Shown here: positions 29,899 through 32,993 of the stretch, piece after piece
How the letters are laid out: each line of letters begins with the position of its first letter
Position numbering within the stretch: position 1 is the stretch's first letter
NCBI GenBank assembly: GCA_947454955.1
Contig: CANGLW010000003.1
Coordinates: 1-64,000 of the forward strand
Direction of reading: 5' to 3'
Source of the DNA: Comamonadaceae bacterium
GTDB taxonomy: Bacteria > Pseudomonadota > Gammaproteobacteria > Burkholderiales > Burkholderiaceae_C
DNA: 64,000 bases
Position numbers and translations under genes: made by a program
The notes under the pieces: generated by a model
The model's input: the letters and a program-made list of their open reading frames with translations, nothing else
The model's database searches: none
What the model was told of the DNA's origin: nothing

Positions 29899-31488
29899 AT
29901 GCATATACACATTCTGGGCATTTGCGGCACCTTCATGGGGGGCCTGGCCGCCCTGGCCCGGGAGGCTGGCCACACCGTCACCGGCTGCGACGCCGGCGTT
30001 TACCCCCCGATGAGCGACCAGCTGCGCGCCCTGGGCATCGAGCTGATGGAAGGTTTTGGCACCGAGCAACTCGCGCTCCAACCCGACATGTATGTGGTGG
30101 GCAATGTGGTGAGCCGCGCGCGCCAAGCCGACGGCACGCCGAAGTTCCCGCTGATGGAAGCCATCATGGACCAGGGCCTGCCCTACACCAGCGGGCCGCA
30201 GTGGCTGGCCGAGCATGTGCTGCAGGGCCGTCATGTGTTGGCGGTGGCTGGCACGCACGGCAAAACCACAACGACCTCGATGTTGGCTTGGATTTTGGAA
30301 CACGCGGGGCTGCAGCCTGGGTTTTTAGTGGGCGGCGTGCCTTTGAATTTTGGGGTGTCTGCGCGTCTTGGGGGGGGCTCATCAAACCGTCGTGTTGATA
30401 GCGGTGAAGGCGGAGCAGGACAGGCCTTGGCTCCGTGTCCCCCGCCCGCTTTGCGGGCTCCTCCTTTACCTGCGCCAAGCCCAGACCTACCCCACCTTGG
30501 GCAGCGCCTTGATGGAGCAACAGCTGACTCAGCGTCTTCTCTCGCTGGCACGGCCCCCTCGGGGGGCAGCGAGGACACACCAGTGCCGAGCGTGGGGGCC
30601 CCATTCGTCATCGAGGCCGACGAGTACGACACCGCGTTTTTCGACAAGCGCAGCAAATTTGTGCATTACCGCCCGCGCACCGCGGTGCTCAACAACCTGG
30701 AGTTTGACCACGCCGACATCTTTGATGACTTGGCGGCGATCGAGCGGCAGTTTCACCACCTGGTGCGCACCGTACCGGCCAGCGGGCGGGTGGTGGTCAA
30801 TGGGCTGGAAGAAAGCCTAGCGCGGGTGGTGCACACCGGGTGTTGGAGCGAGCAGCGCAGCTTTGGCGCTGCGGTGAGTGATTTTTCTGCGCAGGGCGAG
30901 CCGCATGATTTTGCGGTGCTGCAGGCTGGCAAGGTGGTCGCGCAGGTACGCTGGTCTCTTAACGGTGTGCACAACCAGCTCAACGCGCTGGCTGCTATCG
31001 CTGCGGCTGAGCATGTGGGCGTGTCGCCGCAGGCCGCTGCGCAGGCGCTGAGTGAGTTTCAAAACGTCAAACGCCGAATGGAAGTGCGTGGCACGGTGGG
31101 CGGTGTGACGGTGCTCGACGACTTTGCGCACCACCCCACCGCCATTCGCACCACGGTGGACGGGTTGCGCCGGCAGGTGGGCAGCGCGCGTATTTTGGCG
31201 GTGTTTGAGCCGCGCTCCAACACCATGAAGCTGGGCACGATGAAGTCGCAACTGCCTTGGAGCTTGGAACAAGCCGACCTGTCGTTTTGCCACAGTGGCG
31301 GCTTAGGCTGGGACGCCACTGAAGCCCTGGCACCTATGGGTGCGCGCTGTGTGGTGGCTGACAACATCGGCGCATTGGTCGATGCCGTCATCGCCGCGGC
31401 CAAGCCCGGTGACCACATCTTGTGCATGAGCAATGGCGGCTTTGGCGGCATTCACCAGAAGCTGCTGGATGCGCTATCGAAAAAATAG
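29899..31488 (+). CDS. mpl: UDP-N-acetylmuramate:L-alanyl-gamma-D-glutamyl-meso-diaminopimelate ligase, with in-frame insertion
   Basis: MHIHILGICGTFMGGLAALAREAGHTVTGCDAGVYPPMS; AGTHGKTTTTSMLAWIL; FVIEADEYDTAFFDKRSKFVHYRPRTAVLNNLEFDHADIFDDL; LDDFAHHPTAI. Confidence 0.95.
   Translation: MHIHILGICGTFMGGLAALAREAGHTVTGCDAGVYPPMSDQLRALGIELMEGFGTEQLALQPDMYVVGNVVSRARQADGTPKFPLMEAIMDQGLPYTSGPQWLAEHVLQGRHVLAVAGTHGKTTTTSMLAWILEHAGLQPGFLVGGVPLNFGVSARLGGGSSNRRVDSGEGGAGQALAPCPPPALRAPPLPAPSPDLPHLGQRLDGATADSASSLAGTAPSGGSEDTPVPSVGAPFVIEADEYDTAFFDKRSKFVHYRPRTAVLNNLEFDHADIFDDLAAIERQFHHLVRTVPASGRVVVNGLEESLARVVHTGCWSEQRSFGAAVSDFSAQGEPHDFAVLQAGKVVAQVRWSLNGVHNQLNALAAIAAAEHVGVSPQAAAQALSEFQNVKRRMEVRGTVGGVTVLDDFAHHPTAIRTTVDGLRRQVGSARILAVFEPRSNTMKLGTMKSQLPWSLEQADLSFCHSGGLGWDATEALAPMGARCVVADNIGALVDAVIAAAKPGDHILCMSNGGFGGIHQKLLDALSKK
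30370..30603 (+). repeat. Probable inserted repeat-like sequence within mpl (78 codons, in frame)
   Basis: Separates conserved GVSARL from FVIEADEYDT; Pro/Ser/Gly-rich low-complexity translation; begins at G8; contains hairpins GCCCGCTTTGCGGGC and GCCCCCTCGGGGGGC. Confidence 0.65.
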
Positions 31489-31635: not shown

Positions 31636-32760
31636 TCATCCACGTTGGCGGCGTGCCAACACACCTTGTGACAAGACGTCCAAACAGGCCAGCGAATCGT
31701 CCCAACCCAGGCAGGCATCGGTGATGCTCTGACCGTAGGCCAACTTGCTCGGGTCGTCTTTGCCGGGGGTGAACTTCTGGGCGCCGGCTTGGATGTGGCT
31801 TTCCACCATCACGCCAAACACCTGGTGCGACCCGCTGCTGATTTGCGCGGCGATGTCTTTGGCCACCTCGAGCTGCTTCTCGTGCTGCTTGCTGCTGTTG
31901 GCATGGCTGCAGTCCACCATCAAGGTGGGGGGCAGCTTGGCGGCTTCCAGGTCTTTGCAGGCGGCGGCCACGCTGGCGGCGTCGTAGTTCGGTGCCTTGC
32001 CGCCGCGCAAAATCACGTGGCAGTCTTGGTTGCCGTTGGTTTGCACAATGGCCACCTGGCCGTTTTTGTGCACCGACAAAAAGTGGTGGCCACGGCCTGC
32101 GGCTTGGATCGCGTCGGTGGCGATTTTGATGTTGCCGTCCGTCCCGTTCTTGAAACCAATGGGCGCAGAAATGCCCGAGGCCAGCTCGCGGTGCACCTGG
32201 CTCTCGGTGGTGCGCGCACCAATTGCGCCCCAGGCGATCAGGTCGCCAATGTACTGGGGCGAAATCACGTCCAGGAACTCGCTGCCCGCGGGCAGGCCCA
32301 GGCGGTTGATCTCAATGAGCAGCTGGCGCGCGATGCGTAGGCCCTCGTCAATGCGGTAGCTCTCGTCCAGGTAGGGATCGTTGATCAAACCTTTCCAACC
32401 CACCGTGGTGCGCGGCTTCTCGAAGTACACGCGCATCACAATTTCCAGCGTGCCCGCGTACTGGTCGCGCAGCACCTTGAGGCGGCGGGCGTAGTCAATC
32501 GCAGCAGCCGGGTCGTGGATGGAGCACGGGCCAATCACCACCAAGAGGCGGTCGTCGGTGCCGGCCATGATGTTGTGGATGGTCTTGCGGGTGTCGGTGA
32601 TCAGGGTCTCGACCGGCGTACCCAAAATCGGGAAAAAGCGAATCAGATGCTCAGGTGGGGGTAACACAGTGATGTCCTTGATGCGTTCATCGTCCGCATG
32701 GCTGGTGCGGTCCATGGGTTGCGCACCGGGGGGATATCGGTGGATCTGAGGGTTGGTCAT
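31636..32760 (-). CDS. aroG: 3-deoxy-7-phosphoheptulonate (DAHP) synthase, class I
   Basis: LLVVIGPCSIHDPAAAIDYARRL; MRVYFEKPRTTVGWKGLINDP; LPAGSEFLDVISPQYIGDLIAWGAIGARTTESQVHRELASG; DCSHANSSK. Confidence 0.97.
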   Translation of the reverse strand: MTNPQIHRYPPGAQPMDRTSHADDERIKDITVLPPPEHLIRFFPILGTPVETLITDTRKTIHNIMAGTDDRLLVVIGPCSIHDPAAAIDYARRLKVLRDQYAGTLEIVMRVYFEKPRTTVGWKGLINDPYLDESYRIDEGLRIARQLLIEINRLGLPAGSEFLDVISPQYIGDLIAWGAIGARTTESQVHRELASGISAPIGFKNGTDGNIKIATDAIQAAGRGHHFLSVHKNGQVAIVQTNGNQDCHVILRGGKAPNYDAASVAAACKDLEAAKLPPTLMVDCSHANSSKQHEKQLEVAKDIAAQISSGSHQVFGVMVESHIQAGAQKFTPGKDDPSKLAYGQSITDACLGWDDSLACLDVLSQGVLARRQRG

Positions 32761-32787
32761 CGCGTGTCCTTTCAATTCAATGGGGCA

Positions 32788-32820
32788 TAAAAAAACCGCC
32801 GGGGTTTCCGGCGGTTTTGG
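32788..32820 (-). terminator. Attenuator terminator in the aroG leader
   Basis: RNA sense (minus): AAAACCGCCGG-AAACC-CCGGCGGTTTTTTT; 8-bp GC stem (32795-32802/32808-32815) plus T run, upstream of the aroG start. Confidence 0.85.
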
Positions 32821-32849
32821 GAGGATTCGGGCTGCTTTTCAGGCTGTGC

Positions 32850-32912
32850 TCAGATCTCTCTACCGCCGGTGGCGCTTGAGAAATAAAAGTAGCTAAAGAA
32901 AAACTTAGACAT
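32850..32912 (-). CDS. aroG leader peptide MSKFFFSYFYFSSATGGREI (20 aa, Phe/Tyr-rich)
   Basis: ATG TCT AAG TTT TTC TTT AGC TAC TTT TAT TTC TCA AGC GCC ACC GGC GGT AGA GAG ATC TGA; 7 aromatic residues in positions 4-11; followed by the terminator above. Confidence 0.8.
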   Translation of the reverse strand: MSKFFFSYFYFSSATGGREI

Positions 32913-32993
32913 GCATTCAATGTAACACAGCTTGCTGACAGTGATTTGACGACCTGCTTAGGTAGGTCCTTGAGGCCGTCTTTGAGACGAACA

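Follow-up and report, generated by a model that had tools for sequence, protein, structure and literature searches.

In Escherichia coli, aroF, aroG and aroH are controlled by the protein repressors TyrR and TrpR in response to the aromatic amino acids. An attenuator with a Phe-Tyr-Phe leader precedes the DAHP synthase gene of Corynebacterium glutamicum (aroR-aroF), and this system is described as reacting to Phe but not to Tyr limitation (Neshat 2014, via PMC11802643; PMC4046766). The trpL leader RNA of Sinorhizobium meliloti has its 5' end right at the AUG start codon of its leader ORF (PMC7298713). In the stretch of Comamonadaceae DNA analysed here (64,000 nucleotides, hereafter the window), aroG is very probably controlled by a cis-acting, ribosome-mediated transcription attenuator, a conclusion well supported by comparison. 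The locus combines an ORF with aromatic codons upstream of aroG, predicted to be translated, an intrinsic terminator between this leader ORF and aroG, and a mutually exclusive antiterminator, formed from the leader ORF, that a stalled ribosome is predicted to set free.

The regulated gene, aroG (31636..32760, minus strand, with its ATG at 32760 and its own Shine-Dalgarno sequence), encodes a DAHP synthase (3-deoxy-7-phosphoheptulonate synthase), as the first-pass annotation had held; the product matches TIGR00034 (aroFGH) with 530 bits against a cut-off of 173, and no other DAHP synthase of its type was found in the genome assembly. Its upstream neighbour, tldD (34460-32994), lies on the same minus strand, to which all coordinates of the element refer. 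Re-reading of the sequence placed the 20-codon leader peptide ORF, MSKFFFSYFYFSSATGGREI (32850..32912, stop included), and its regulatory codons 4-11, TTT TTC TTT AGC TAC TTT TAT TTC (F F F S Y F Y F; 32880..32903), exactly where they had been annotated; the ORF has no Shine-Dalgarno sequence and is kept in all readable relatives. The intrinsic terminator claimed ahead of the DAHP synthase start was likewise borne out by sequence, fold and alignment, and consists of a 5' arm, ACCGCCGG (32808..32815), the loop AAACC, a 3' arm, CCGGCGGU (32795..32802), and a U-run of seven T (32788..32794), that is, ACCGCCGG-AAACC-CCGGCGGU-U7 in all (32815-32788). Moreover, the leader contains a segment identical to the terminator 3' arm (leader arm CCGGCGGU, 32862..32869), and the complementarity of this antiterminator 5' strand to the terminator 5' arm, which serves as the antiterminator 3' strand, is exact over 8 nt, as first reported. 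Folding further revealed a leader-internal hairpin, absent from the first-pass annotation, that is predicted to compete for the leader arm (protector or pause hairpin); its strands are AUUUCUC (32878..32884, inside leader codons 10-12) and GAGAGAU (32854..32860), in which GAGAG is nearly invariant in the alignment.

The leader region folds with z = -4.2 relative to dinucleotide shuffles. Among ATG ORFs of 10-45 codons on both strands of the window, the leader is the sole one with at least 7/8 aromatic residues, and first-order Markov random windows yielded 0.0 such ORFs on average (60 runs). Generic promoter and terminator scans of the window listed neither the -10 element described below nor the attenuator terminator, although the latter is clear in the direct fold and in the family alignment. 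Elsewhere in the window, mpl carries an apparent in-frame low-complexity insertion (PPPALRAPPLPAPSP...GGSEDTPVPSVG; 30390-30590, plus strand), parts of which are found again at four other genomic sites with 78-96% identity; this recurrence suggests a dispersed repeat inside a coding gene.

For comparison within the Comamonadaceae, 80 contigs of named genomes that carry close relatives of aroG were sampled, which gave 78 readable upstream regions and, with the window, 79 loci. Conservation of the mini-ORF and arms, proposed earlier as a check, held in every case: the same leader, arms and terminator were present in 78/78 readable aroG upstream regions, with a shared layout of a leader that includes six to nine aromatic residues, a GGCGG arm, and a CCGCC/GGCGG terminator followed by a U-run. 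A covariance model (R2) matched 117/121 genomes of the window's family. The consensus of the aromatic run among the relatives is FYFxYFWF, and a Trp codon occurs in the run at 70/79 loci; the window has Tyr at that place, and a locus from the same GTDB genus (L205, genome G535) has Trp. The F/Y run behind the sensing of Phe and Tyr previously proposed for this locus was confirmed, but most relatives carry Trp as well. Because the Trp codon is so widespread, the family-wide sensor would ancestrally read Phe, Tyr and Trp.

The extended -10 element of the window, TGTTACATT (32919..32927), ends 6 nt before the leader ATG. The corresponding box, TGnTAnnnT, was found at 79/79 loci, compared with 0 in 7,419 nt of background, and stood 6-8 nt before the leader ATG in 76 of them; it was exactly TGCTACATT at 59/79. 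The stricter pattern TGTGnTAnAnT-N6-8-ATG occurs once in the 2.78-Mb genome, with an expectation of 0.01 in the window. Upstream of the box, the 79 loci share essentially no conserved information at the -35 position. An SD-like 4-mer was found before the leader ATG at 0/79 loci, and the same test was positive before aroG at 73/79. The usual spacing between a -10 element and the start site puts the predicted transcription start on the leader AUG or no more than 2 nt from it, so that the leader mRNA is probably leaderless, a feature missed in the first-pass annotation. As for a start downstream of the leader ORF, which the first-pass annotation had raised, the likely promoter lies upstream of that ORF. 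The box was present in 5/14 families; outside the Comamonadaceae, it turned up in f40 and f23, in most of f44 and in part of f4, and was missing from the other families examined. The probable leaderlessness is therefore a feature of the lineage.

The following course of events may be proposed. Transcription would begin at or beside the leader AUG, and ribosomes would load without a Shine-Dalgarno sequence. A shortage of charged tRNA-Phe or tRNA-Tyr (in most relatives of tRNA-Trp, too) would stall the ribosome at codons 4-11, where it would cover the 5' strand of the leader-internal hairpin and leave the leader arm CCGGCGGU free to pair with the emerging terminator 5' arm, allowing RNA polymerase to continue into aroG. 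With plentiful aromatic amino acids, the ribosome would reach the UGA and mask the leader arm, so that the terminator forms and transcription ends; if the leader were untranslated, the internal hairpin would hold the arm, again with formation of the terminator. The start of transcription, stalling, read-through and the identity of the acting amino acids are what we infer from the sequences, and the stalling and antitermination logic originally put forward is supported by conservation, covariation across families and geometry.

The geometry was evaluated on the assumption, taken from established footprint data, that the leading edge of the ribosome lies 12 nt past the first A-site base. With codons 4-11 of the window leader in the A site, all 8 antiterminator pairs are free; codon 12 in the A site leaves 5 pairs and codon 13 none, codon 11 being the last aromatic codon. 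In most of 138 loci across families, 11-15 nt separate the first nucleotide of the last aromatic codon from the GGCGG core downstream. In the fold of the ribosome-free nascent window leader, UUUCUC/GAGAGA pairs together with an inner CGCC/GGCG stem, and the antiterminator does not form. The UUCUC/GAGAG pairing is kept in nearly all Comamonadaceae. Nevertheless, the stability of the protector hairpin relative to synonymous recodings (mean z 0.1) does not exceed that of controls, which makes its role less certain, and the ribosome-free leader arm is predicted to be hidden at 36/79 loci, about half. The complete terminator is in all cases the favoured structure at equilibrium, so that antitermination would depend on the order of folding, a dependence common to all classical attenuators.

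The compensatory changes sought to corroborate the pairing were found across families, between the leader and terminator arms; the Comamonadaceae alone were uninformative, since their arms hardly vary and give no covariation signal to read, and the search was therefore widened to the order. At the base adjoining the core, three-way covariation links the leader arm with the two terminator arms across families: the pair between leader and terminator 5' arm is C-G in 25 and U-A in 19 of 66 (U-G in 1, other in 18), and within the terminator, 32 G-C and 30 A-U pairs were counted. When one locus was taken per family (14 families), the match between leader and terminator exceeded that of permuted pairs, with a median p of about 0.01. 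Duplexes between a leader and its own terminator had a mean of -16.6 kcal/mol versus -15.3 kcal/mol for swapped partners (0/200 permutations); some families (f8 and f44) run against this overall mean, their own-pair duplexes being weaker than swapped ones. One locus (L208) has a different core in its leader arm, AUUAGCGG, and in its terminator 5' arm, CCGCUGGU, and still has a 12-bp duplex, which makes it a natural compensatory variant. The parts of the element, their spacing, their conservation and the three-way covariation are directly visible in the sequences.

Codon usage in the leader was also distinctive. In Comamonadaceae, the leader Arg codon is CGA or AGA in 64/65, compared with only 2.4% of aroG Arg codons, the leader Glu codon is GAG in 65/65, and the first Gly of the leader arm is GGC in 65/65; the second is GGA or GGU in 64/65, compared with 14.5% in aroG. 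The GGCGG core, which encodes Gly-Gly in this family, is read as Leu-Ala-Glu, Pro-Ala-Val or Thr-Ala-Val in others. Since the arms covary across families and the leader arm is read in different frames, these comparisons indicate that it is constrained as an RNA element, not as a peptide. Synonymous recoding gave a weak signal for the antiterminator (mean z -0.7). RNAalifold applied to the family alignment recovered no helix but the terminator, since helices that exclude each other cannot be displayed together.

The element extends well beyond the family. Covariance model R1 found one significant copy in the window's own genome and matched 60/250 genomes sampled across the order, in 59/60 of them directly upstream of aroG. 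Altogether, at least 14 GTDB families of the order Burkholderiales have the element ahead of aroG, as does one family outside the order, where the two strong class-level matches beyond the order (L188 and L189) are also upstream of aroG. These two loci (genomes G413 and G261; same class, family outside Burkholderiales) have the leaders MNAARASFYFWYYFPKPLAEEG.. and, starting with GTG, VNTPCARFYRWYYFPKPPAEEG... Weak class-level matches (E about 1e-3) and most second matches in genomes of the family were not counted, since they have the look of terminators alone. When 40 aroG upstream regions from genomes lacking a model match were inspected, at least two (L151 and L180) proved to carry the element, most other readable ones had no aromatic leader in view, and tblastn on the short fragment failed to place the remainder. 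A second match of another kind lies upstream of leuA in the window's family (L197:480-700, G549:C24); its leader, MNFNFSSTLLLLLPANGQQ.., contains five Leu codons and is accompanied by a terminator and, 7 nt ahead of the ATG, by the same extended -10 element as at aroG (TGTGCTATATT). The arrangement resembles that of aroG and suggests a leaderless attenuator for leucine.

The position of the hairpin between tldD and aroG, with tldD upstream on the same strand, would also suit a plain tldD terminator next to a mini-ORF that arose by chance. However, the element tracks aroG and not tldD: just part of the order-wide loci have a recognisable tldD C-terminus upstream, and the attenuator of L189 sits downstream of groEL. 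Several relatives also have a separate hairpin and T-run right after tldD, ahead of the -10 box. In Variovorax loci (e.g., L028, L036 and L057), such a second hairpin with its T-run (e.g., CCCGGTCGCTTGACCGGGTTTTT) lies just upstream of the box and separates tldD from the leader promoter, so that tldD transcription can end without the attenuator terminator. Since Markov sequence yields no such ORF and all readable relatives contain it, a chance origin has practically no probability left and may be regarded as already refuted by the comparative data.

A trans-acting role has a precedent in S. meliloti, where attenuation at trpL sets free both an RNA and a peptide with functions in trans (PMC7298713), and a terminated leader RNA of about 130 nt is expected at aroG as well. 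Yet the peptide sequence and the frame of its C-terminal half vary, whereas the RNA arms and the aromatic run are retained, a pattern that speaks for tRNA sensing and pairing in cis; an added trans role would be compatible with this, but a small RNA or peptide acting in trans with cis attenuation secondary or absent is quite improbable. As remote as the chance origin is a leader switched by a bound metabolite or protein (a riboswitch or an RNA-binding protein), with the peptide merely opening the structure, even though terminator/antiterminator logic suits any class of attenuator. A search of Rfam with the window leader and ten divergent loci brought no family to its threshold, and hence no riboswitch, T-box or leader at gathering score; the window scored 22.3 bits against Phe_leader (cut-off 55) and 24.1 bits against Leu_leader (cut-off 50). 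Besides the ORF, the loci contain no conserved aptamer-like region, and the conserved sensor is the codon run with its spacing to the ribosome edge.

Neither a TyrR-type HTH nor TrpR was found in the genome, which is 94.8% complete, so that attenuation may be the principal control of aroG. Apart from the main comparative study of proteobacterial attenuators (Vitreschak et al. 2004, FEMS Microbiol Lett 234:357), the element is absent from Rfam and from the searchable literature; the accessible portions of a survey of premature terminators (PMC2965389) make no mention of aroG, and those of a tyrA-centred study (PMC1173090) do not describe the element. We lean, by a modest margin, toward regarding it as an undescribed, order-wide class of pan-aromatic (Phe, Tyr and Trp) attenuators, leaderless in Comamonadaceae, that provides the main transcriptional control of entry into the shikimate pathway in bacteria lacking TyrR and TrpR, the same leaderless design serving other pathways in the lineage (leuA, L197). 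Such a class would explain how the first committed step is tuned to all the aromatic amino acids in a large environmental group without the repressors of E. coli. It would also represent a natural sensor of three amino acids, with a leader that may be leaderless, and a single reporter construct would suffice to test its logic. In addition, an RNA model is now at hand with which this regulatory element, missing from Rfam, can be searched for.

By analogy, the mechanism is classical, operating in the manner of the enteric phe, trp and leu attenuators. With those of E. coli pheA and trp (RF01859 Phe_leader and RF00513 Trp_leader), the locus shares a product-rich leader, antiterminator and terminator hairpins and, as predicted here, a protector hairpin; the E. 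coli attenuators differ in serving terminal branches and in sensing one amino acid each. DAHP synthase transcription is under aromatic amino-acid control also at E. coli aroF, aroG and aroH, where it is exerted by repressor proteins of the kinds sought here. S. meliloti trpL resembles the present element as a leaderless leader RNA that attenuates a gene of aromatic biosynthesis, the start being predicted in our case, and differs in sensing Trp only, in preceding trpE(G) and in belonging to Alphaproteobacteria. Compared by description, C. glutamicum aroR-aroF likewise has a ribosome-mediated attenuator with an aromatic leader before a DAHP synthase gene; it belongs to a distant phylum, whereas the leaders described here contain six to nine aromatic codons, usually including Trp. 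Collectively, the mechanism, a DAHP synthase attenuator (Corynebacterium) and a leaderless leader peptide (S. meliloti trpL) were already known; apparently new for this lineage are the taxonomic breadth, the occurrence of all three aromatic amino acids in the leader and the probable leaderless start.
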